Positions 33,133 to 46,385 of a stretch of 64,000 nucleotides of DNA are shown here, in pieces. Below the pieces are notes generated by a model that was given only the letters and a program-made list of their open reading frames with translations, was not told the DNA's origin and ran no database searches. How positions within the stretch are numbered: the stretch's first letter is position 1; each line of letters starts with the position of its first letter. The stretch lies in NCBI RefSeq assembly GCF_028823615.1, contig NZ_JAPEHT010000002.1, forward strand, positions 1-64,000. Direction: 5' to 3'. Both the position numbers and the translations under genes were made by a program. This DNA is from Planococcus sp. A6 (GTDB taxonomy: Bacteria > Bacillota > Bacilli > Bacillales_A > Planococcaceae).

Positions 33133-36100
33133 ATGGCCACAGGTGGTAGAAGTAATATCGAAGTTACAGCCAATACGAAGAAGGCTCGTAAGACCATGGG
33201 CGATTTTTTCCGCGATATGGAGAATGTCGGGAAGAAATCACTCCAAGTTCTGAATGCGATTGATCCATTCGACGACTTATCTACTAGCGCAAAGAAAACG
33301 ACTGGCGACATGAAAAAGGTCAGCGATTCAGCTAAGAAGCTTGATGGTGAGCTGGATAAGCTCGGCGATGGAAACAAGCTCGATGAAATGGGTCGAGATG
33401 TAAAGAAAGCGGATAAACACATGGATGAGCTGGAAGACGCGGCTAAAGATGTAGACGATGCGCTGGAAGATGCCACGGGCGAAATGAAGGACTTCGGTGA
33501 TGCAGCTGTCAAAGAAACTGGCGCAGCAGAAGGAAGTGTCGGGAAACTCAGTGGCAAGTTGAAAACATTTGTTGGCGTACTTGCAGCGGGTTTCGCAGTT
33601 GATAAGATAAAAGACTTCGGTTTTGAACTCGCAGCAACTGCAGGCTCAGCCCAGGCAGTAGAAGCGCAATTTTCTACGGTCTTCGGCGATATGCAAGGCG
33701 AAGCTGCGGAGAGTCTATCTGCTATTTCTGGCGAAGCATCCATCCTCGAAAACCGTATGAAAGAAAGCTTCACAAAAATCGCAGCATTCGCCAAAACAGG
33801 CGGAATGGACACTGCAGATTCGTTGAACTTAGCCGACCGCTCGATGAGAGCGATTGCCGATAGTGCGGCGTTTTATGACAGATCACTCGAGGACACGACA
33901 GAAAGCCTGCAGTCATTTTTGAAAGGGAACTATGAGAACGATGCGGCTCTTGGGCTCTCTGCCACTGAAACAAGCCGTAATGCAGCGGCAAATGAGCTTT
34001 ATGGGAAGTCATTTAATGATTTGGACGAAGCTCAGAAGCAATTGACGCTCTTGCAAATGGTTGAAGATGCAAACAAAGTTTCCGGCGCACTTGGACAAGC
34101 GGCCCGCGAATCTGACGGATGGGAAAACGTCATGGGTAACATGAGCCAAGCCTGGGAAGACTTCAAAGCTAAGATTGGAGCGCCAGTGCTTGGAATCGCC
34201 GTTAAAGGCATTCAAGCTGCTACAGGAGCGCTTCAAAAAATCGATGCAGATGCTATTGGCGATAAAATTGGCGCAACGTTTGACTGGGTTAGTGGAGCAA
34301 TAGGTCGCGCAAAAGACGCAATCGAACCATTCCGCAATGCGTTTGGCGCTTTGAAAGATGTGATTAGTGGCGAGGATGAAACTGTCGAAAACATCTTTTG
34401 GGCTTGGGGTCTCGGTCCAGATACTTGGTCTGGAGTCACATCAGCAATCCAATCTATGAAAGATACATTCATCGATTTCAAGAATTCGATCATGCCAATA
34501 CTGAAGCAGGCAGGCGATTATGTTCAGCAGTACTTAATAGATTTATGGCCAAAAGTGCAAACCGGTGTCGGCATAGCGCTTAGCTTTGTCGCCGGCTATA
34601 TTCAAACCTTACGTGATAATTGGGACAAGCATGGACCCGCTATTTTCAATCGAGTAAAGGAAGTCTTAATTGACCTATGGCCGTCAGTGAAGTCTGCGGT
34701 GTCTGGGGTCGTCTCCTTTATAGGCAACATGGTAGGAAAGATAGTGGCTTTTTGGCAGTCAGACGGACAGCAGATTATGGATGCCGTTCGAAACGTTTTT
34801 GATTTTATTCTTAATATAATCGAATTTGTTATGCCGTTTGTGCTTGCGCTCATTAAGTCCGTATGGGGGAATATTCAGGGCGTCATTACCGGGGCGCTAG
34901 ATATCATTATGGGCGTCGTGAAGATTTTCTCTGGTCTTTTCACCGGTGACTTCAAGAAAATGTGGGAGGGTGTGAAGCAGCTATTCTTCGGAGCTGTTAA
35001 TTTCATCTGGAATTTTGTTCAGCTGACTTTCTACGGGAAGATTCTCGGAGGAGCGAAGGCTTTCATCCTATCTTTCCGAACGTTCTTTGCGAGTATGTGG
35101 CAAGCGATAGTCACGCTCTTCAAGGGAAATACAACAGCAGCATTCAACATGGTCAAGTCTGCTTGGTTTCTTATTTACAATACAACAAAAGCAACCTTTA
35201 CGAATGTGATCAATTTCTTTAAGAGTATTTGGTCTACTCTGAAGAGCATTACGAGCGGAACAATCAACTTCCTCAAGACAGCTTTTACTACCGGATTTAG
35301 TGCTATGTTCCGCACGGTAAAAACTGGACTCGGTAATATCAAGTCTTGGTTCACCAATATATTTCGAGATGTTTACGATGCCGTGAAAGGCCGTTTTTCT
35401 GACATTGTGGCTTTGGCAAAAGGACTACCAAAACGTATTGGTGATGGTATAGGGAAGATGGCATCCAAGGTTAGTAACGGTGTCACCAAAGTTGCTAATA
35501 CTTTAGCTTCTAAACTTGGGGATGGAGTAAATGGTGTCATTAGCGGAATCAACGGAGTGCTTGAAAAAATAGGCGTGAAGGAAAAGAATTTCGTGCCATT
35601 GTGGAACGTTCCACAGTATGCTCACGGCACTAAAGACCATCCTGGCGGATTAGCTAAAGTAAATGACGGAAAAGGTGCTAACGCGGGTCCGGAACTTATC
35701 ATAAATCCCGATGGCAGTGCAGGCATGATGAAAGGAAAAGATGTTATAGGTAATTTCGCCAAAGGAACACAGGTGCTTTCGGCGATTAATACGAAGAAAT
35801 TTCTCCAAAGCATACCCGCATATAACAACGGAAAAGGCATCTTAAACTCCTTGCTAAGCAAAGGTAAAGATGTAGCTAGTCATGTTTGGGAAGGTGGAAA
35901 AGACTTCGGAAAGAAAGTCGTAAATACGGCGATAGATGTCTTCGATTACATTAAAAAGCCTGGTAAATTACTAGATCTTGTGCTCGATGGTCTTGGGATT
36001 AAAAAGCCAAGCGGTAGCGGCTTTATAGCAAACATGGCCAAAGGCGCCTGGAACAAAGTGAAATCCGGTGCAGTCGGTTTTGTAAAAGGCAAACTAGACG

Positions 36101-36900
36101 GGTTCGGCGATGATGGTGGTCCAGCTCCTGGCTTCGGTCGTCTCTTCGGGAAATCATCCAGCTATGGTTGGCGGATGCACCCGATCCTCAAGAAACGAAT
36201 CTTCCATAACGGAGCTGACTATCCGGCGCCTGCAGGAGCACTAATCAAGGCACAGGCCGCTGGTAAAGTAATTCAGTCGGCGTTTCATTCTATCCGTGGT
36301 AACTATGTGCGAATTAAATCGGGCATCATGGAGCGGATCTATCAGCATAACCAGCGAAACTTGGTTAATGCTGGCGACATGGTACGTAAGGGGCAAGGAA
36401 TCGGTACTGTCGGTTCAACTGGACGCTCAACCGGTCCCCATTTGCACTATGAGGTGCTACGGAATGGCAAGAACATAAACCCGGAAGGCTTCTTCAAAGG
36501 CGGCATCGTGAAAGCGAAGCAGCTGGCGTGGATTGCTGAGAAGGGCATGGAGGCCATCATCCCATTGGTAACAAACCGTGCTGAAGGGATTGACCTTTGG
36601 AAACGGGTCGGTCAACACTTTGGGTTTGATATGGATTCGATGTTGAATTCAGGAGACTACGATGTAAGTTATGCCGGCAACGGTACCGCAGCACTCGATA
36701 GCGCCTCATCTGTTGGGTCGAGCATCAAGCAGAGCTTTGGCTCAAGTCAGAAGACTGGCTCTAATCAGCCGATTCACCTGACAGTCAGTGTGCCGCTTAA
36801 TGATCGAGTGCTTGTTGAAGAGACATTTGAATTAACGCACGAAATGATTGAACAGAAAAAAGGTATCGAAAAACAAGGGAGAAGGGGGAAAACCTTTTGA
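33133..36900 (+). CDS. Tape measure protein with C-terminal M23 peptidase
   Basis: 1255 residues, AGGAGG upstream. The N-terminal third has coiled coil and Lys/Asp-rich helices, the middle (about 450-740) several hydrophobic helices alternating with amphipathic ones, and a Gly-rich stretch lies near 900-990. Residues about 1005-1125 form an M23/LytM endopeptidase: YGWRMHP, HNGAD (His1025, Asp1029) and GPHLHYEV (His1103, His1105), so all four zinc/catalytic positions are kept. The protein sets tail length; the peptidase probably opens the cell wall during DNA entry. A disordered end precedes the last 40 residues. Confidence 0.93.
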   Translation: MATGGRSNIEVTANTKKARKTMGDFFRDMENVGKKSLQVLNAIDPFDDLSTSAKKTTGDMKKVSDSAKKLDGELDKLGDGNKLDEMGRDVKKADKHMDELEDAAKDVDDALEDATGEMKDFGDAAVKETGAAEGSVGKLSGKLKTFVGVLAAGFAVDKIKDFGFELAATAGSAQAVEAQFSTVFGDMQGEAAESLSAISGEASILENRMKESFTKIAAFAKTGGMDTADSLNLADRSMRAIADSAAFYDRSLEDTTESLQSFLKGNYENDAALGLSATETSRNAAANELYGKSFNDLDEAQKQLTLLQMVEDANKVSGALGQAARESDGWENVMGNMSQAWEDFKAKIGAPVLGIAVKGIQAATGALQKIDADAIGDKIGATFDWVSGAIGRAKDAIEPFRNAFGALKDVISGEDETVENIFWAWGLGPDTWSGVTSAIQSMKDTFIDFKNSIMPILKQAGDYVQQYLIDLWPKVQTGVGIALSFVAGYIQTLRDNWDKHGPAIFNRVKEVLIDLWPSVKSAVSGVVSFIGNMVGKIVAFWQSDGQQIMDAVRNVFDFILNIIEFVMPFVLALIKSVWGNIQGVITGALDIIMGVVKIFSGLFTGDFKKMWEGVKQLFFGAVNFIWNFVQLTFYGKILGGAKAFILSFRTFFASMWQAIVTLFKGNTTAAFNMVKSAWFLIYNTTKATFTNVINFFKSIWSTLKSITSGTINFLKTAFTTGFSAMFRTVKTGLGNIKSWFTNIFRDVYDAVKGRFSDIVALAKGLPKRIGDGIGKMASKVSNGVTKVANTLASKLGDGVNGVISGINGVLEKIGVKEKNFVPLWNVPQYAHGTKDHPGGLAKVNDGKGANAGPELIINPDGSAGMMKGKDVIGNFAKGTQVLSAINTKKFLQSIPAYNNGKGILNSLLSKGKDVASHVWEGGKDFGKKVVNTAIDVFDYIKKPGKLLDLVLDGLGIKKPSGSGFIANMAKGAWNKVKSGAVGFVKGKLDGFGDDGGPAPGFGRLFGKSSSYGWRMHPILKKRIFHNGADYPAPAGALIKAQAAGKVIQSAFHSIRGNYVRIKSGIMERIYQHNQRNLVNAGDMVRKGQGIGTVGSTGRSTGPHLHYEVLRNGKNINPEGFFKGGIVKAKQLAWIAEKGMEAIIPLVTNRAEGIDLWKRVGQHFGFDMDSMLNSGDYDVSYAGNGTAALDSASSVGSSIKQSFGSSQKTGSNQPIHLTVSVPLNDRVLVEETFELTHEMIEQKKGIEKQGRRGKTF

Positions 36901-38333
36901 GTACAATGGAATTCAATCATGTTAGAAAAGATTATTTGTCTATTGCTCGCGATTGGTCTCTCCCGGCTTGGGCTCCTATTAGACGAGAGTACATGGAGAT
37001 ACCTGAAAGGCCAGGCGGGGAACAAACGCAGATGGAAACAGAGATGCGAAGGTTCCCCCTTCCTATCATTATTCATGCAAAGACGTTCGAAGAAAAAGAG
37101 GCGTTCCTGGAGGACATGGCCAGTTGGCTAATCCATAAGGACCCAAAGCCTTTGAAGTTTACCAAGTACCCGAACCGTACGCTGTACGCTCAAATAGAGG
37201 GTGCGCCAGACTTTTCTGAGATGTTGAAGAATGGCAAGGGCACGCTGCAAATTGTTTGTCCGGATCCGTATAAGCACGGACCAACGCAAACTGATCCATT
37301 TAAGAATGGGATGCTTGAAATTACGAATAACGGAACCGTTCCCGTTTATCCGATTATCCGAGCCAAAGTTCTTGAGGACATAACGCACTTGCAGCTATTC
37401 GATAGCAAACGTTATTTTCAATTGGGAGAGCCGGCACCTATTGGAAGTGTAATTAGACCAAAAGAAGAACGGCTACTGAATGACGCGCTCGATTCTTTGG
37501 TGGGGTGGAGCCCCAGCGGCCAAGAGGTTGACGGCGGCGTTATATCCGGAGCGATGGAGACAAACGGCTATTCATTTGGTGCATCCAATTATGGAGAAAA
37601 AGTAGAAGGATGGCATGGACCGTCACTTAAGATAACTGTTCCCCAAGCGCCGATTACAGATTTTAAAGTAAGAACAAAATTCATTTTTAAGAATCCATCT
37701 TCGGCAGCTCGTGGCAGAATGGAGTTTTATCTAAGAGATGATCAATCACAAGATATGGCGAAATTCGCAATGAAACGGACGGGCGGTGGCTCATACGGAA
37801 ATAGCATTGAGGCGAGAGCGGGCGGCGGTACGGATTATAAATACTTCGCAAATTATGCTGGGAAAAAAGGCATTGAGTGGCGAGACTTTGAAGGCATCAT
37901 GGAGTTTTCAAGAGTCGGCAATCTCTGGACTGTCTATACTGCGCTAGTAGATCCTGTCACAAAGACGCACACGGCTAGAGCTACCTTTACACATAGAGAC
38001 ACTCAGAATAAGTATGTGCAGAACTTGGCTCAGATACAGCTTCATGTAGCTCAGAGTGGTGGCACGGAGCCTACAACAATGCGCATAAACCATCTTGAAG
38101 TCTTCCGAATCAATCCAATCACCTTAGAAGAAACCAACGTCATTGCGGTAGCAGACGATGAAATAGAAATCGACTTCAAAAAAGAAAAGATTCGTTTAAA
38201 TGGGGAGTTGCGGCCGGACTTAAAAGCGTTCGGAAGCAACTTCTTTGCTATTCCAACAGGAAAAAACCTCTTTGAAATAGAGCCAGGTACGAGTCTCCAA
38301 GCTACTGCTGAATGGGAAGAGGGATATCTATGA
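36897..38333 (+). CDS. Evolved distal tail protein (Dit) with inserted carbohydrate-binding-like module
   Basis: 478 residues, about twice a classical Dit; TTG start overlapping the tape measure stop, with GAAGGGGG nine bases upstream. N-terminal Dit landmarks are RRFPLPIIIHAKTFEEKEAF (belt domain), PLKFTKYPNRTLYAQIEGAP and ITNNGTVPVYPIIRAK. About residues 190-400 form an extra beta-sandwich (FKVRTKFIFKNPSSAARGRM, DYKYFANYAGKKGIEWRDFE) like those in evolved Dits. The protein then returns to Dit-like sequence (IDFKKEKIRLNGELRPDLKA; FFAIPTGKNLFEIEPG). Dit is the hub of the baseplate; the insert could bind cell-wall sugar. Confidence 0.85.
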   Translation: MSTMEFNHVRKDYLSIARDWSLPAWAPIRREYMEIPERPGGEQTQMETEMRRFPLPIIIHAKTFEEKEAFLEDMASWLIHKDPKPLKFTKYPNRTLYAQIEGAPDFSEMLKNGKGTLQIVCPDPYKHGPTQTDPFKNGMLEITNNGTVPVYPIIRAKVLEDITHLQLFDSKRYFQLGEPAPIGSVIRPKEERLLNDALDSLVGWSPSGQEVDGGVISGAMETNGYSFGASNYGEKVEGWHGPSLKITVPQAPITDFKVRTKFIFKNPSSAARGRMEFYLRDDQSQDMAKFAMKRTGGGSYGNSIEARAGGGTDYKYFANYAGKKGIEWRDFEGIMEFSRVGNLWTVYTALVDPVTKTHTARATFTHRDTQNKYVQNLAQIQLHVAQSGGTEPTTMRINHLEVFRINPITLEETNVIAVADDEIEIDFKKEKIRLNGELRPDLKAFGSNFFAIPTGKNLFEIEPGTSLQATAEWEEGYL

Positions 38334-41089
38334 TTTACATCATGCATCCACAGCAAGACGAAATACTTGGTTATATCACTCCGGACAATTATTGGGAGGA
38401 TGAGCACCATCATGGCTTGGATGGCGTTAATTTTATTCAATTTGGAACTTATGCGGATAGTGAAGAGGCGCAGCACCTGACTGATCGATGCCGCTTAATC
38501 GCACAGGGAAGCTCAGGTGTATGGCAGGAATTTATTGCCCACCAGATTTCCACAAGGACCGGCCGTAAATTGAAGATCGTTGCGACTGGATCGGAAATGG
38601 AACTGGATGGATTGAAAATCATCTATCCTCAAACCTTTACTGGGGCTACCTTAGAATATTGCCTCTCTATTGCGACAAGCGACACCGATTGGCAATCGGG
38701 TATTGTGGATCATGCTAGTTTTCAAACACAAACATTCGAGCAGCACCTCGGCGGCTACGCCTTCTTATTGCGCATTGCAAATTACTATGACCGAGAACTA
38801 CGCTTCAGAATCGAAGTCTCGGGAAATCGGTTCGTCGGAAGATATATCGACATGGTAGAGCGGGTAGGGGCAGACAAGCGAAAAGAGATCGTTGCTGGAA
38901 GTAATTTAATTTCCATCGACAGAACCTTTCACTCGAAAGATGTTATTACAGGATTGATTTGTCGAGGGCCCGAAAGAGAAGATGGCTCTCTGCTTGAAAT
39001 TCGAGTGACAGATGATGAAGCCTTCCAAAGATGGAATCGAAACAACAATCATATTTGGGATTTTTACGAGCCAGAGAGCACAGACGCCGAAATGACAGAA
39101 GAGCGACTTCGCAGCCTGGGCACAACCGAGCTAAAGAAACGAATCAATGCAGTCGTGGAATATGAAATAGAAGCTGCAGTTTTAGAAGATGATGATGTTC
39201 AATTAGGGGACACCTTAAGGATCAAAGATGAAAACTTTGAACCGCCATTGTATGCGGAGTCGCGTGCCATTTTTGTGAAAGAGAGAATAGGGCGCGAAGA
39301 CTTGCAGAAAACCTATACGATTGGCGAGATCACTGAACTGGAAGAAGACGAAGTGCTACGAAATGCGAGAAAGGCTCAGGCTCGCTATGGCACCAAAATA
39401 CTGCGCAGCCCATTGCCTCCACCAATCCAAAAAGCTATTTGGTTTCAAACGAATCCGGAAGAACCGGATAAGTTGGAAATTCCTCACGTTCCGGATATGA
39501 GTAGCCAAACGTGGAAGCCGGCATCAGCAAAAACTGCAGGGGAAATTGGCGGTATCGAACTGAATAAACAATACAATGGCGTTTCCTGGTCAGAGGAAGA
39601 AGGCATCGTTGTTGATCGGACGGACGAGCTCGTTCGTTCCGTAGTAAATGCGACTGAAGGGATTTCGGTTCAAGCACGTAAATTTACAGCCGAAGATTTC
39701 CAAAAGGTCTTCTTCGTTGATGGCGAAGGTAACTTGAACATGGTAGGCATCATGTATGGTTCCAGTATCATTCTCGGAGGCGAGGAGAGCGGCAGCTTAA
39801 CGATTTTAGGCGAAGACGGCGCACCGATTGCACAACTAGACGAGAATGTACGAGATATGCCAGATTTAACGGTTGGTCACTTGGACGCTCCAAACAAGGT
39901 TGAATACATTGATTTTGGTGACACGCCCTTTGTGCAGCACGTAGCAGCGGAAGCTATGAACGGCGTGGCTGAACCGTCAGACGGAAACACCGGTCTGGAT
40001 TGGGGTTCACCCTTACAAACCGTCAGCGAGGCTCTGAGAAGACTTCCGCGCATGTTTGACGGGGTAGCAGAAATAAGCCTGGCTTATGGCCAGACGTACA
40101 ACGAGGAAGTATTCATCAGCGGATTCACAGGCAGAGGAACTTTAATTATTCGAAATTCTGCTGATACAACAAGGGCCGCCGTAAGTGGTAAAGCAGAAAT
40201 CACCAATAACTCGATCTTCGTTGAATGGCGAGACTTGAATTTGAACTCCACGGATCCATACGCGGGGTTCTTTGCGCGTGGTTCGGTAGGGAAATTGGTC
40301 AATTGCCGAATAAATGGTGCTGCCGGCGATACAAGCTTTGGCGTCAATGTAAACTCGGGTGCTTTCTTTGAACTTTATAATTGCTCATATTTCAACTGTG
40401 TAACGGCCGTACGCGCTTCTTATGGCGGCAATGCCTACATGTCGGATAATACCGGCGAAGTGTCAGGAACAGCCATTCAAGCATTTGGAGGAGGAATGGT
40501 TTCTGGCCAAGGAACAGCACCTACCGGAGGCGCTGGAAATACTTCTGAAATTGCTGGCGGGCAAGTGACCGGCACATGGAATTTCCCGACGCCTCCTTCT
40601 GCACCGGCGCCAGTGACCAAGACAACGAAAGAAACTTTCAATTCATCGACATCAGCCAGCGGTACTTGGCGAGCCGATGAAAATAAATGGGATGCCACTT
40701 CGTACTATGGTAGCTATGCTACACAGGGATCCTATTACGGCTACGGTCCATTTACCGGCGCTTGGTTCTTTGGGGCGCTGCCGACTGGCAAGAAGATTAA
40801 ATCCATGCGTTTATACGTCTCCCGTAAAGCAGGCGGCGTGAATGCAAAAGTGAATGTGAGCTTCAGACCGCACACAAACGCTTCTCGCCCTTCGGGGAAT
40901 GTCAGCATGCAATCTACTTGGCATTCAGTTGGCATTGCAGTCGGAGAGAGCAAATGGATCTCATTGCCTTCTAAATTCTTTGCTGGCTTTGAAAGTGGAA
41001 GCTACAAAGGGATGGCAATTGGCGGCAGCGCTTATGCGAAATTGGGCGTGTCAGTGAAGCTAGAAATCACGTATGAGGAGGTCGCGTAA
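38330..41089 (+). CDS. Tail-associated protein (Tal) with beta-helix spike
   Basis: 919 residues from the ATG at 38330, overlapping the Dit stop. Residues 1-370 are the prophage tail (Tal, gp27-like) domain: QFGTYADSEEAQHLTDRCRL, GNRFVGRYIDMVERVGADKR and the usual ILRSPLPPPI end. The remainder is Gly/Ser/Thr-rich with right-handed beta-helix look (DLNLNSTDPYAGFFARGSVG, FELYNCSYFNCVTAV). It finishes with a C-terminal beta domain (NVSFRPHTNASRPSGNVSMQ; KLGVSVKLEITYEEVA) that could be the receptor-binding tip. Confidence 0.85.
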   Translation: MIYIMHPQQDEILGYITPDNYWEDEHHHGLDGVNFIQFGTYADSEEAQHLTDRCRLIAQGSSGVWQEFIAHQISTRTGRKLKIVATGSEMELDGLKIIYPQTFTGATLEYCLSIATSDTDWQSGIVDHASFQTQTFEQHLGGYAFLLRIANYYDRELRFRIEVSGNRFVGRYIDMVERVGADKRKEIVAGSNLISIDRTFHSKDVITGLICRGPEREDGSLLEIRVTDDEAFQRWNRNNNHIWDFYEPESTDAEMTEERLRSLGTTELKKRINAVVEYEIEAAVLEDDDVQLGDTLRIKDENFEPPLYAESRAIFVKERIGREDLQKTYTIGEITELEEDEVLRNARKAQARYGTKILRSPLPPPIQKAIWFQTNPEEPDKLEIPHVPDMSSQTWKPASAKTAGEIGGIELNKQYNGVSWSEEEGIVVDRTDELVRSVVNATEGISVQARKFTAEDFQKVFFVDGEGNLNMVGIMYGSSIILGGEESGSLTILGEDGAPIAQLDENVRDMPDLTVGHLDAPNKVEYIDFGDTPFVQHVAAEAMNGVAEPSDGNTGLDWGSPLQTVSEALRRLPRMFDGVAEISLAYGQTYNEEVFISGFTGRGTLIIRNSADTTRAAVSGKAEITNNSIFVEWRDLNLNSTDPYAGFFARGSVGKLVNCRINGAAGDTSFGVNVNSGAFFELYNCSYFNCVTAVRASYGGNAYMSDNTGEVSGTAIQAFGGGMVSGQGTAPTGGAGNTSEIAGGQVTGTWNFPTPPSAPAPVTKTTKETFNSSTSASGTWRADENKWDATSYYGSYATQGSYYGYGPFTGAWFFGALPTGKKIKSMRLYVSRKAGGVNAKVNVSFRPHTNASRPSGNVSMQSTWHSVGIAVGESKWISLPSKFFAGFESGSYKGMAIGGSAYAKLGVSVKLEITYEEVA

Positions 41090-41493: not shown

Positions 41494-43713
41494 ATGGCCA
41501 TGAAAAAACACACGCGTCTCGATCTGGTGGAGGGTGGGAACATCTTTAAGCAAGGGGACTATGTGACCCTCGGTTTTATTCCCCGTGATTATACAGGTGC
41601 ATCAGTCGATTTAACGAACAAGCAAATTGAAGGCTCTATATTTAATGGCAGTACGGGAGTTATATATGAGGGGCCGGCAAGCTTTGTAGACGGAAAGATA
41701 TTCTTTACGATCAAGCAGGTGCTAAATGACGGGAAGTTCCAGCTGGAGTTTACAGTCACCGACGCAGCCGATCAAGAGTATAGAACGAAATTCCCAACGG
41801 ATGATTACGCATCGGAACTTACCATCAAACCTTCTGCTGATAACTTGGATTATGTCGGTGTAAGCATGACGACGGTCGCACAATTGCGCACTGAGCAGGA
41901 ACAAAAACAGCAGCAGTTTGAGCTGGCTATTGTGCCGCAAGTCGATGAATTGAAGCAGCGCGTTGAGGAAGGAATCGGTGCGTTCACAGAGGACACGGAA
42001 GTAAAAGATGCTCGGATGGACGAGATAAACTTGCGTACTTTTAATCAAAAAGTTGTGGCGCAGTTGGCTGGAACAGAGGCTGAGGCAAGACGGAAAAAAG
42101 ACCCGGAAGATTTATCCGATAGAACACTTGCTCTCGTAACGGGAAACGGAACTATAAACGTTCTTTCCGTACCTCAAGAGAAATCTGTGGAATACAGTAA
42201 ACTCAACCCTTACTTACAGAACAAAACCGTATCCGACAACCTTCTCTATCAGGCAGTTTGGGAGCAAGGGAGTTTTTCGGGGAGTTCCAAAACTGCTACT
42301 ACCGTCAGATTAAGGTCAGCAACTCCCATTCCTGTTGATAAAAATAAACCACTGCATATCAAACTGCATGGGTTTACAGATTATCAAGTCACGTTGAGAG
42401 GGTATAGGGGCAGTGAACTGGCTCCAATTTATTCAACTGCTACCTACATTACCGTGGACACCATCCTCAAATGGAGCGATGTGTCGAACATTGATTTTGT
42501 TGTAAAGCGGATTGATGGTGCAGCTATCCTTCCGGAAGAAGCAAAGGCATTCAACTTTGAAGTTATCCAGAGTGATGACTTAGTGAATACGAATGTGCGA
42601 AAAACATTGAACAAAAAGCCAATCGACTTGTTTCCAACATTATTCGAGAACTGGACATACGGTTCGATTGATGGAGTGAACGGTTCAATTGCTTACGACA
42701 GGTCAATGATCGTTACACCTGACTTTATCCCGGTTAGCGTGACAGGAAATATCCTTGTTGAAATCAGCGGAAGCCGTAATTTGCAGATAGCCACTTTTAG
42801 CGGCGCAAACCAATTGAAACGGATATTTGATGTATCCAGCACTCAGATTATTCATTTTAACGACACCGAAAAGTTTCACAAACTGGAATTGTCCGATCCG
42901 GCTAATACGTCCGTGAAATATATGATGGACTTCCTGAATGAGACCGATATAAAAATGTCGCCAGTCGCATCAAAAGAACCGAAAAAATTACGGGTTGCGA
43001 GCTTCAATCTAGGTTTGTTCAGCAAGGGTACGGGTAGAGGACTTGATAACGCCACAAACGATATTCCTGCCGCCTTAATCGACACAAAAAGATATCTTGC
43101 AAGTATGGGTTGCGATTACATCGGTTCTCAGGAATACACGGAATACTTTGACCGCAATCAGACCATTGTTGCGGATACCGAATTAATGGGTTATCTATAT
43201 CCGTTCATGCTTTACAGTTACAAGCCTTCAGGGAGTAAAATCTTCTCTAAGTACGAATTGTTTGATACGACTCTTAGAGCTTCCTTTGTCAATCAAGCGA
43301 CCGATGATTCGGGTGGCACTCGCTATTATCAGAAAGCGTATATCCGGCTGAACGGTAAAGTTGTGTGCATAATTAACACGCATTTAACCACAGTGGACTA
43401 TCAAGTAAGGGTAGCGCAAATGCAGGAATTAATAGACCTTTTGGCGAATGAAGAATATGCAATAATCACTGGCGATTTTAACGTACTGGGTGACGGAGGA
43501 ACTAATGCACCCGGTTCTGAATACACAGGTTTTTTGAATTCAGGATACAAAATGGCAAATTACGATTACTACGGGGAGTTTGCCACGCATGATACAGGTA
43601 AGAAACTCGACAATATTATAGTGACTGATAATATCCAAATTAGTAATGTCCAAGTCGTGTCTGACGCCTCTGTCTCTGACCACTATCCTATCATTGCTGA
43701 CTTATTAATCTAA
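41494..43713 (+). CDS. Baseplate upper protein (BppU-like) fused to an EEP phosphodiesterase domain
   Basis: 739 residues, GGGAGGAA upstream. Residues 10-125 form a BppU-type N-terminal domain (QGDYVTLGFIPRDYTGASVD; DGKIFFTIKQVLNDGKFQLE) that docks on the baseplate. A coiled coil covers about 130-185 and a beta-rich adhesin-like middle about 220-480. Residues about 495-739 form a complete endonuclease/exonuclease/phosphatase domain: SFN (Asn505), GSQE (Glu547), NTHL (His630), GDFN (Asp661, Asn663), LDN (Asp706) and SDHYPI (Asp729, His730). Every catalytic residue of DNase I-like enzymes is in place. Candidate substrates are wall teichoic or lipoteichoic acid phosphodiesters, phospholipid head groups, or extracellular DNA; the sequence alone does not decide. 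Confidence 0.88.
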   Translation: MAMKKHTRLDLVEGGNIFKQGDYVTLGFIPRDYTGASVDLTNKQIEGSIFNGSTGVIYEGPASFVDGKIFFTIKQVLNDGKFQLEFTVTDAADQEYRTKFPTDDYASELTIKPSADNLDYVGVSMTTVAQLRTEQEQKQQQFELAIVPQVDELKQRVEEGIGAFTEDTEVKDARMDEINLRTFNQKVVAQLAGTEAEARRKKDPEDLSDRTLALVTGNGTINVLSVPQEKSVEYSKLNPYLQNKTVSDNLLYQAVWEQGSFSGSSKTATTVRLRSATPIPVDKNKPLHIKLHGFTDYQVTLRGYRGSELAPIYSTATYITVDTILKWSDVSNIDFVVKRIDGAAILPEEAKAFNFEVIQSDDLVNTNVRKTLNKKPIDLFPTLFENWTYGSIDGVNGSIAYDRSMIVTPDFIPVSVTGNILVEISGSRNLQIATFSGANQLKRIFDVSSTQIIHFNDTEKFHKLELSDPANTSVKYMMDFLNETDIKMSPVASKEPKKLRVASFNLGLFSKGTGRGLDNATNDIPAALIDTKRYLASMGCDYIGSQEYTEYFDRNQTIVADTELMGYLYPFMLYSYKPSGSKIFSKYELFDTTLRASFVNQATDDSGGTRYYQKAYIRLNGKVVCIINTHLTTVDYQVRVAQMQELIDLLANEEYAIITGDFNVLGDGGTNAPGSEYTGFLNSGYKMANYDYYGEFATHDTGKKLDNIIVTDNIQISNVQVVSDASVSDHYPIIADLLI

Positions 43714-44128: not shown

Positions 44129-44164
44129 ATAGAATACACTGTATTAAAGGGGAGTGTATTCTAT
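44129..44164 (+). promoter_or_regulatory. Perfect 11-bp inverted repeat enclosing the ribosome site of the moron
   Basis: ATAGAATACAC (44129-44139) and GTGTATTCTAT (44154-44164) flank a 14-base segment containing AAAGGGGA, the ribosome site. The start codon TTG begins at the last base of the right arm. As RNA this puts the Shine-Dalgarno in a hairpin loop; as DNA it could be a repressor operator. Confidence 0.75.
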
Positions 44165-44655
44165 TGGCAAAAATACTCAAAAGCATTGACAGCATAGGCC
44201 CTGGCATACCAGGAAATTTGAAAAGTAAAATACAAATTGTAGCTACGTATGCATTAAATGAGAGAGAAGCAAAAATAATGCATGCTTCTTTAAATGCGGT
44301 ATCAAAACAAATAGTATGTGATAAATTAACAAAAAAAGAATTAAGAAACCTGATTATCTTATTGACGGAAAAAGGATCTTATTGTGTGGAAGATGACTTT
44401 TCAATGGGGAGTCTTGCAACTTACGCTGTTTTCAGCATACAACCTTGGAGAGACAAGGAATGGACTGATTACAATCTCTTAACATGCTTTATAGAAGAAT
44501 TCACTCATCATTTTTGGGGCATTGAGGATGAAGAAGAAGTGAAGTATAAAGTTCTCGAAATCGTAAAAAATCACGTAGACTCTGAGATTTTTTTTGAAGA
44601 CTTGTTTCTAAAGGACTGGAAAAAAGGATACCCCCATTTATATGAAGATGAATAA
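44164..44655 (+). CDS. Unknown AT-rich moron protein before the lysis genes
   Basis: 163 residues from a TTG whose ribosome site lies in a hairpin loop. Soluble, mixed charge; landmarks are GPGIPGNLKSKIQIVATYAL, LTEKGSYCVEDDFSMGSLAT and LLTCFIEEFTHHFWGIEDEE. The EEFTHHFW box resembles a metal-binding helix but is not a true HExxH. No family recognised. It is AT-rich compared with its neighbours and bounded by terminators on both sides, the usual layout of an independently expressed cargo gene. A lysogenic conversion, toxin or defence role is possible but unproven. Confidence 0.75.
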   Translation: MAKILKSIDSIGPGIPGNLKSKIQIVATYALNEREAKIMHASLNAVSKQIVCDKLTKKELRNLIILLTEKGSYCVEDDFSMGSLATYAVFSIQPWRDKEWTDYNLLTCFIEEFTHHFWGIEDEEEVKYKVLEIVKNHVDSEIFFEDLFLKDWKKGYPHLYEDE

Positions 44656-44772: not shown

Positions 44773-45261
44773 ATGGACAATTTGTTGTTATTAAATCTCG
44801 GAGGTGCTGATTTGGAACATTTGGAAGTAGCGCGTATGTATTTATTTGGACAGGTCAAGTTTTTGGATTTTCTGATGGTGCTGATGGCATTTGACATCCT
44901 AACGGGAATCTTCAAAGCGATAAAAAACGGAAATTTGTGGTCGAGAAAGAGCTTGTTCGGCTACGCTCGGAAGATTCTTATTTTTGGTGTAATCATTGTC
45001 GCCAATATCATCGATCAGATTTTGGGTCTGAACGGGGCGATCACGTACGCGACTGTTATTTTCTACATCGCAAATGAAGTGTTGTCGATTACAGAGAACC
45101 TAGCAGAGATCGGCGTACTGGTACCGAAAGAGCTTGCCGAGAAGTTGAAGGTGATGCAGCCAGGAGAAAACGGTTCGCTGGGCAGCCAATTGAAAGAAGA
45201 AATGGCCGGTAGCAAAGTAGATGAAGAGCTTCAAAAAGCGAAGAAGAAAGAGGGGGAGTAA
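44773..45261 (+). CDS. Holin, phage_holin_4 / toxin-secretion type
   Basis: 162 residues, AAAGGAAG upstream. Hydrophobic segments lie at about 30-47 (FLDFLMVLMAFDILTGIF), 68-84 and 92-108, with the family landmark FDILTGIFKAIKNG followed by SRKSLFGYARKI. A long charged C-terminus (KAKKKEGE) follows. It forms membrane lesions that release the endolysin. It lies two bases upstream of the lysin gene. Confidence 0.9.
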   Translation: MDNLLLLNLGGADLEHLEVARMYLFGQVKFLDFLMVLMAFDILTGIFKAIKNGNLWSRKSLFGYARKILIFGVIIVANIIDQILGLNGAITYATVIFYIANEVLSITENLAEIGVLVPKELAEKLKVMQPGENGSLGSQLKEEMAGSKVDEELQKAKKKEGE

Positions 45262-45263
45262 TA

Positions 45264-46385
45264 ATGCCGAAAATCATATTCTTTGCAGGACACGACCACG
45301 ATACATGGGAAAAAACCGGGGGCAAAGGAGTTCGGACCAATTTAGAAGCAGATGGCGTTTACGAAGAATTCGACACGAACTTCATCATTGCTAAGGGCGC
45401 TGTAGATTTACTTCGCAAAGAAGGATTCACAGTCCTTTTCCCTCAGCAAGACAAACGCCGAATGACATTAAAGCAACGTGTTGACTATGCGAATGCGCAC
45501 GGCGCCGATCTAATGATTGATGTCCATAGCAATGCCTCAGCCAGCCGGACAGCGACGGGCGCGGCGGCGTTCTATTGGTACAATAGTGCAGCTGGTAGAA
45601 AGGCGGCAGACATCTTCGCTAAGCACATTAAAGCAAACGGATTGCCAACTTGGTCCGGGGGCACATACGCATCACAGGCGATCGGTTGGTCGTCTTTTTA
45701 TATGCTCAAATACTCGGAGATGCCGGCTGTTCTTACGGAAAGCTTTTTCTTCACAACGCGCTCGGATTTGGAGAAATACTTGCTCAATCCAAAGGTTCAA
45801 AAAGTGCTCATGAAGATCCACGCGAACATTGCCCTGGAGTTCTTCGGCAAGAAAGCACTCGATACAGCACTCGATTCCGTCGTGCTTCCTGATGGCCGAG
45901 AAGTCGTGAAAATTGGCAGCCGCGGAGCCGAAGTGAAGTATGCTCAGATTGCACTCGGTAGACACGAGTTTGAGACAGATGTCGACAGCATCTTCGGAAA
46001 AGACACAGATAAGAAGACAAAAGCTTTCCAGGAAGCAAAAGGGCTAGTAGTAGATGGAATTATCGGGGCAGCTACATGGACCGAGCTTGAGAAGAAGCCA
46101 CAGGCAAAACCAGTGGTTAGTAAACCAGCACAAAAGGAGGAAGAAGACATGGAACAAACAGCGGTAGTAATCAACGGGACAGCAGATGCAGGCGCGGCGA
46201 CACTTTTGGCATTTCAACTTGGATGCGGTGTGTTTTTTCGTAAAGATGCCGAGAAGCGTCAAGTTGCCAAAGAAATCTATATCGCCGGTGGTGGCAAAGG
46301 GAAAATCAAAGGTGACAACCTCATTGATCTATCCGGCAAGACGCGCAGCGATACAGCCAAAAATGTGACAGCTAAACTGAAATAA
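45264..46385 (+). CDS. Endolysin: N-acetylmuramoyl-L-alanine amidase with peptidoglycan-binding domains
   Basis: 373 residues. Amidase_3 domain at 1-195: GHDHD (His10), EEFDTN (Glu34/35), DVHSNAS (His88) and LTESFFF (Glu159) give the zinc site and catalytic Glu. A PG_binding_1 domain is at about 212-278 (IGSRGAEVKYAQIALGRHEF; VDGIIGAATWTEL). A Pro/Lys linker follows, then a C-terminal domain of about 78 residues (VINGTADAGAATLLAFQLGC; KNVTAKLK) that looks like a cell-wall binding unit. An ideal ribosome site and ATG lie in frame just before the last domain, so a separate C-terminal subunit may be made from the same gene. Cleaves stem peptides from glycan at lysis. Confidence 0.93.
   Translation: MPKIIFFAGHDHDTWEKTGGKGVRTNLEADGVYEEFDTNFIIAKGAVDLLRKEGFTVLFPQQDKRRMTLKQRVDYANAHGADLMIDVHSNASASRTATGAAAFYWYNSAAGRKAADIFAKHIKANGLPTWSGGTYASQAIGWSSFYMLKYSEMPAVLTESFFFTTRSDLEKYLLNPKVQKVLMKIHANIALEFFGKKALDTALDSVVLPDGREVVKIGSRGAEVKYAQIALGRHEFETDVDSIFGKDTDKKTKAFQEAKGLVVDGIIGAATWTELEKKPQAKPVVSKPAQKEEEDMEQTAVVINGTADAGAATLLAFQLGCGVFFRKDAEKRQVAKEIYIAGGGKGKIKGDNLIDLSGKTRSDTAKNVTAKLK
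46133..46151 (+). promoter_or_regulatory. Internal ribosome site and in-frame start in the endolysin gene
   Basis: AAAGGAGG at 46133-46140, eight bases, then ATG at 46149 in the lysin frame. It would yield a 78-residue protein starting MEQTAVVINGTAD, exactly the C-terminal binding domain. Confidence 0.65.

Follow-up and report, generated by a model that had tools for sequence, protein, structure and literature searches.

A tail-module protein of a Planococcus prophage ends in an EEP domain, a candidate phosphodiesterase for host surface polymers

Introduction

Through their action on surface polymers, phage enzymes contribute to host range, and they serve as tools and antibacterials. Most of the recognized ones are glycosidases, lyases, esterases and peptidases. 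In proteins of the BppU layout a beta domain is followed by a helix, and the fold of GDPD phosphodiesterases differs from that of EEP enzymes. According to one published study (PMC10194240), GDPD-type phosphodiesterases are also among the recognized phage enzymes, enzymes of this type are able to break the phosphodiester bonds of teichoic acid, and in the enterococcal phage 9183 BppU is fused to one of them. On the evidence of that study, a tail-borne phosphodiesterase is already known in the GDPD form.

Deposited phages of Gram-negative bacteria carry EEP proteins annotated as tail components, so EEP domains on phage tails are not wholly new. They include gp17 of CR8 and CR44b (phages announced in PMC4038870), as well as proteins of BEK2, Cronobacter phage B1 and Salmonella phage Se-J. 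Bacterial proteins with the same fold are represented by the Bacteroides structures 3g6s and 4c1r (BT3783), which are not virion proteins. In the literature search, no paper on the EEP domain of a phage tail protein appeared among the matches listed, which is weak evidence of absence, and the papers listed by one of the queries made no mention of PF03372 or Exo_endo_phos.

Here we describe a prophage protein of Planococcus sp. A6 which, like the phage 9183 fusion, would be a baseplate-type protein with a C-terminal phosphodiesterase domain, but whose N-terminal part has no BppU_N match. With the Gram-negative tail EEPs it shares the same eight catalytic residues and, in the case of BEK2, CR44b, B1 and Se-J, a C-terminal EEP placed after a virion anchor. 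The Gram-negative proteins differ in having other anchors, 18–24% identity and a partner gene without a counterpart in the DNA studied here. 3g6s and 4c1r are 21% and 18% identical to the domain over the aligned part.

Results

Gene neighborhood

The analyzed stretch of DNA (64,000 nucleotides, hereafter the window) contains an ORF at 41494..43713 on the forward strand, with no stop inside, whose product, as read from the ORF, Pfam and PHROG data, is a 739-aa tail-module protein made up of a putative N-terminal anchor, a helix, a middle region and a C-terminal EEP domain. On the same strand, it is preceded by genes for a tape measure protein with an M23 peptidase (33133..36900, Pfam/PHROG; M23 1.4e-25), the distal tail protein Dit (36897..38333; phrog_202 6.6e-89, SPP1_Dit 7e-11) and a tail-tip protein with a Prophage_tail (Tal-type) domain (38312..41089; PF06605 1.8e-13), the last separated from it by an 86-aa ORF. 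A 163-aa ORF (44164-44655) follows, which belongs to phrog_33355, a family without a function; next come, again on the forward strand, a holin (44773..45261; PF05105 1.7e-31) and an endolysin with Amidase_3 and PG-binding domains (45264..46385, Pfam). Inspection by eye shows ORFs for an integrase, a repressor, a terminase, a portal and a capsid protein in the left part of the window. The EEP gene is part of the tail module of a siphophage-type prophage.

The order Dit, Tal, protein is shared with BppU of TP901-1, the difference being the 86-aa ORF. The M23 peptidase on the tape measure gives this tail a separate candidate cell-wall cutter.

The EEP domain

The EEP (DNase I-fold) domain covers residues 490-739 (42961..43710, forward strand) and was recognized with Pfam, PDB, Foldseek and alignment. 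Pfam assigns residues 535-730 to PF03372 Exo_endo_phos (1.2e-7, 32.1 bits with a cut-off of 24.5), and the single PDB chain found by phmmer at E<=1 is 3g6s, a Bacteroides EEP protein (1.7e-4, residues 617-737). PHROG searches gave matches to phrog_34101 (3.6e-8) and phrog_22384 (3.9e-7). There is also a weak match to the NCBIfam exodeoxyribonuclease III model (18.5 bits vs a cut-off of 99).

The original prediction named eight residues, and we read all of them in the sequence at the positions it gave, with every codon on the forward strand and confirmed by alignment: Asn505 (43006..43008), Glu547 (43132..43134), which we take to be a metal ligand as in EEP enzymes, His630 (43381..43383), Asp661-Phe662-Asn663 of the GDFN motif (43474..43482), Asp706 (43609..43611) and Asp729-His730 of the SDH motif (43678..43683). 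The eight residues are identical in 15/15 aligned EEPs, a set made up of the window EEP, ten EEPs from phage tails and four from chromosomes, the last hand-picked from 66.

We modeled residues 490-739 with AlphaFold2 from a six-sequence alignment in which Asp706 is out of line with its counterparts; confidence in the result is low (pLDDT 53, pTM 0.65). Its best Foldseek match is TDP2 (E 3.6e-9), and TDP2 chains dominate the fold matches. In a second-look structural alignment of the same low-confidence model, 3g6s reached Z 16.6 with an rmsd of 3.5 over 202 residues, and the top rows, EEP proteins of unknown substrate and TDP2, are tied (Z 16.6, 16.3 and 16.2). Neutral sphingomyelinase is found at Z 15.1, and 4c1r at rank 16 (Z 15.6). 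As 4c1r is titled mannosyl-6-phosphatase, there is a recorded case of an EEP fold whose substrate is a glycan phosphate. The top two viral structures, the CR8 tail fibre (4.3e-10) and the CrRp3 EEP protein (5.8e-10), are not independent matches, because relatives of both are in the input alignment of the model. Judged from this model, the fold comparison does not choose among glycan phosphate, DNA-end and lipid substrates.

The sequence score, the set of catalytic residues and the DNase I-like fold, the latter seen through a low-confidence model, all place the domain in the EEP superfamily PF03372. Taken together, the Pfam, PDB and fold matches and the eight shared residues mean that the EEP domain is not a chance resemblance. 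The predicted complete EEP domain at the C-terminus of a tail-module protein was thus borne out, and the structure prediction that it suggested matched EEP structures, though with a low-confidence model.

Relationship to other EEPs

For a tree of EEP domains we used 77 rows from locus ORFs matching an eight-phage profile, with genome matches lacking a locus, seven repeat loci, identical sequences and pieces <150 aa left out. The ten phage EEPs group in a single clade (100/100), with the window EEP outside it on a very long branch (89/52). A forced clade of the window and the phage EEPs was not rejected (p-AU 0.684), its fit being 2.6 log units better. Against the eight-phage profile, from which the window had been excluded, the window EEP scores 59.4 bits and chromosomal EEPs reach up to 65.0, so the window EEP resembles the phage tail EEPs in sequence no more than chromosomal EEPs do. 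Its identity to the EEPs compared is <=28% in the tree columns and up to 32% in local matches.

The window EEP may or may not be a member of the Gram-negative tail group (phrog_34101 / 31166), and we did not adopt this reading: the free tree places it outside, the joint clade fits slightly better, and its 59.4 bits lie within the chromosomal range. Nor did we adopt an origin from the host's own chromosomal EEPs, which form a 100/98 group without the window. Going by the sequences, the window and the phage tail EEPs could possibly have one shared origin or come from two separate captures.

The host has two neighboring stand-alone chromosomal EEP genes (L084:7842-8597 and, as the next frame, G000:C27:8961-9470). 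Neighboring EEP frames occur also in several loci of the same genus.

The N-terminal part and the middle region

Residues 1-127 (41494..41874, forward strand) form a beta-rich domain which falls in phrog_6487 (1.4e-5), a family without annotated function, and which presumably serves as the virion anchor. A single-sequence model (pLDDT 59) has beta strands to residue 127 and then a long helix; its structural matches are only Ig-like or similar beta folds, none of them at E<=0.001. The model and the alignments delimit the helix (128-164) and a linker to residue 191, where the alignments with two same-genus relatives, G079 and G098, end (41875..42066, forward strand). The middle region, residues 230-488 (42181..42957, forward strand), has no PHROG or Pfam match and thus no recognized family; we found no second copy of it in its own genome at E<=0.001.

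It had been proposed that the protein is of the BppU type, and the sequence does not support this label. BppU_N is absent from the 9 families listed at E<=10 for 7 anchor proteins, the window included; above 0.1, HMMER filters drop most matches. As a positive control, TP901-1 BppU matches BppU_N at 4e-41. When we aligned the anchor with hhalign to single TP901-1 sequences, the probability was 1.3% for BppU and 0.4% for the neck passage structure (NPS) protein. Membership of the BppU family PF10651 is therefore not supported by sequence. One trait of that family is present, namely a gene position in the baseplate region, downstream of Tal. The beta domain followed by a helix also resembles the BppU of TP901-1 in layout, with no sequence relation found, and the anchor may share the BppU_N fold without a sequence match.

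Streptococcal relatives of the anchor were first listed by tblastn at a non-significant E of 0.3-4 (8 records), and hhalign relates the anchor to both of the streptococcal prophage tail-region proteins tested with it, at 92% and 95%. One of them, from prophage Javan384 (L110:2977-5598), has the related anchor (hhalign 92%) with a GDSL/SGNH domain behind it, a combination seen also in the second tail-gene locus of the window genome. The N-termini of both streptococcal proteins match, in addition, a PHROG named 'neck protein', and for this reason the window protein may sit at the baseplate or elsewhere on the tail.

Exchange of C-terminal modules

A search of 261 genomes of the family with the anchor (E<=1e-6) located it at 7 places; the 6 genomes concerned belong to a single genus. 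The modules after the anchor comprise the EEP of the window (1/7), a GDSL/SGNH hydrolase in the second tail-gene locus of the window genome (1/7), a pectate-lyase-like beta-helix in G079 and a beta-helix in G096 (2/7), and a polysaccharide deacetylase in G123, read to the locus edge (1/7). In the remaining two (2/7), G098, which matches a tail-fibre PHROG at 2.6e-23, and G083, no Pfam domain follows. Different C-terminal modules are thus found on one conserved N-terminal part; the same-genus proteins share this part and the slot behind it, and differ in the C-terminal domain. The recognized alternative modules belong to families acting on carbohydrate polymers or their substituents.

The strongest result comes from the comparison with G079. 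Its anchor is 84% identical to that of the window over residues 4-191, where the similarity ends, and its tail-tip segment is 84% identical to residues 230-510 of the window Tal over 281 aligned columns. In G079, the pectate-lyase-like beta-helix stands in place of the EEP. An anchor and a tail-tip segment this similar, combined with a different C-terminus, suggest that the module was exchanged recently. The G098 anchor is 64% identical to that of the window, and its alignment ends at residue 191 as well. No relative was found when viral contigs and genome contigs were searched with the anchor alignment.

EEP domains in other phages and genomes

When 50,697 phage records were searched by tblastn with the window EEP (E<=0.01), two E. 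coli phages came up in which the EEP belongs to a 'tail fibers protein' (2e-6). With the E. coli phage EEP as the query, 17/50,697 records matched, corresponding to 12 phages, all of Gram-negative bacteria; two further queries again gave 17 records and the same organism counts. In 6/12 of these phages the EEP protein is annotated as a tail fibre or tail protein, in CrRp3 and PM 116 as hypothetical, and in PA28, Se-H, Se-I and Se-N it has no annotation, Se-H, Se-I and Se-N having the same EEP as Se-J. GenBank notes on gp17 of CR44b and CR8 read 'matches in mass spectrometry analysis'.

A virion anchor precedes the EEP in 6/9 of the phage EEP proteins scanned with Pfam: Tail_spike_N in five of them, two of which also have a T7 fibre N-terminus in front, and P22 Head_binding in one. 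CrRp3, PM 116 and PA28 (3/9 scanned) have the EEP alone, with no Pfam anchor. Anchors of the Tail_spike_N and P22 types carry depolymerases elsewhere. The survey suggested by the original prediction did turn up EEP fusions to tail anchors, but behind Tail_spike_N and P22 Head_binding rather than BppU, and its description of the protein as a possible new type of phage tail enzyme was overstated, given that the EEP occurs in 12 Gram-negative phages, six of them with a tail annotation, and that a GDPD fusion has been published.

A scan of viral contigs revealed five EEP loci, including two further ones, L079 and L080. In the latter (L080:5422-6702), a P22 tailspike head-binding domain (6.7e-66) is joined to an EEP domain; P22 itself has an endorhamnosidase in the tailspike position that the EEP takes there.

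After each of seven Gram-negative tail-EEP genes comes a gene whose product has 214-402 aa and is 15-74% identical to that of CR44b (L025:3723-4544, L029:3720-4535, L028:3732-4544, L026:3738-4571, L031:4728-5534, L027:3711-4355 and L004:5638-6846). The CR44b and CR8 copies bear mass-spectrometry notes, and the BEK2 copy a note on O-antigen binding in T5. This product is possibly a receptor-binding partner or a chaperone.

Other searches added little. At E<=10, 26 phage records were listed, among them entries for Staphylococcus, Listeria, Vibrio, Erwinia and Pseudomonas Y10; the inspection covered two faecal records, which look like bacterial chromosome by eye. Three of 72,556 plasmid records match, two annotated 'EEP family protein' and one without annotation, none as tail proteins. 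A DNA pattern scan of viral contigs gave 23 loci, 2 of which encode weak EEP matches, and the one inspected is not a tail protein. No relative was found in viral contigs and genome contigs searched with the single EEP domain, nor in viral contigs searched with the BEK2 EEP.

In bacterial genomes, with the window's own genome included, EEP matches occur in 18/261 genomes of the family and 13/398 of the class (both E<=1e-6), and in 50/398 of the phylum (nine-row profile, E<=1e-8). Apart from the window, these frames are mostly 230-330 aa long; a further fusion may exist among the longer ones (391 and 422 aa in the class, up to 1041 aa in the phylum). Within the phage, plasmid and genome searches made, the window holds the only tail-protein EEP that we found in a phage judged to be Gram-positive from protein content, such as the streptococcal relatives of the anchor and the PF04464 gene of the host.

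Discussion

We propose that the gene product belongs to the adsorption apparatus of a siphophage-type prophage. The beta domain and helix at its N-terminus would attach it to the virion tail, and the C-terminal EEP domain would act as a metal-dependent phosphodiesterase which, during adsorption, hydrolyzes phosphate links in a glycopolymer of the host cell surface. The substrate would most likely be teichoic-acid-like or another phosphate-containing wall or capsule polymer. The EEP would then fill the role that in relatives falls to beta-helix enzymes, SGNH hydrolases and polysaccharide deacetylases at this position. We infer from these comparisons that the N-terminal part is the virion anchor and that the protein is present in the virion and active as an enzyme, as well as what it cuts and where on the tail it sits, and regard the reading as a whole, a virion-borne EEP phosphodiesterase that cuts a host surface glycopolymer at adsorption, as moderately probable.

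A surface polymer is the best reading of the substrate, given that other glycan-type enzyme domains occupy this position in relatives, and a glycopolymer was chosen in view of this swap series together with the EEPs found on tailspike-type anchors. Counting against it, the fold comparison does not single out a glycan, two of the 7 anchor relatives have no recognized enzyme domain, and 3/9 of the phage EEP proteins scanned lack a Pfam anchor. The host genome has one match to PF04464 (CDP-glycerol glycerophosphotransferase), which is consistent with a glycerol-phosphate polymer; by eye, the gene adjoins unrelated genes, outside any teichoic acid cluster. With a single such match beside unrelated genes, teichoic acid is no more than a plausible substrate. 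A search of the host genome for Stealth capsule genes gave no match, but as no control responded either, it carries no weight. From the list of substrates in the original prediction, the surface polymer thus comes out as the best reading, and DNA and membrane lipid are kept as rivals.

The domain might instead be a phosphomonoesterase which trims decorations, removing phosphate-linked substituents rather than cutting the polymer backbone. SGNH hydrolases and deacetylases, which typically remove substituents, occupy the same slot, and the mannosyl-6-phosphatase BT3783 appears both among the fold matches (the rank and Z score given above) and in the list of the phage EEP profile (1.2e-5). Its rank, however, is not set apart from those of TDP2 and EEPs of unknown substrate, and we consider such trimming unlikely. 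A DNase that clears extracellular biofilm DNA or acts on DNA at infection would fit the dominance of TDP2, a DNA-end phosphodiesterase, among the fold matches, as well as the weak exodeoxyribonuclease III match. It is at odds with the glycan-type domains in the same slot of relatives, and it can be argued that a DNase on the tail of a DNA virus would need to spare the virus's own genome; we find this distinctly unlikely.

The least probable of the alternatives, in our opinion, is a phospholipase-type phosphodiesterase acting on the membrane at genome entry. Sphingomyelinases do match the phage EEP profile (best 4.9e-6), and the neutral sphingomyelinase is a fold match, but other EEPs match at least as well, the protein with the domain is encoded downstream of Tal and is neither Tal nor the tape measure, and bacteria of the host's type are not known to produce sphingomyelin. 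Scarcely more probable is binding without cutting, with the EEP fold as a receptor-binding domain, or expression by the prophage for some other purpose. That 2/7 anchor relatives carry no recognized enzyme domain in the slot speaks for it; against it, all eight catalytic residues are kept despite the distance from all EEPs compared, and their retention at such low identity suggests selection for catalysis.

Returning to the cutting of a surface glycopolymer, the 84%-identical tail regions of G079 and the window with different C-terminal modules constitute a natural test pair. In a broader sense, we give about even chances to the idea that EEP domains are an undescribed class of receptor-processing enzymes, phosphodiester depolymerases placed behind at least three anchors (P22 head-binding, phrog_6487, and Tail_spike_N, which in some phages follows a T7-type fibre N-terminus) and exchangeable with beta-helix, SGNH and deacetylase modules. 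If the EEP is indeed a further solution for phosphate-linked polymers, the hypothetical proteins of CrRp3 and PM 116 would gain a testable function.
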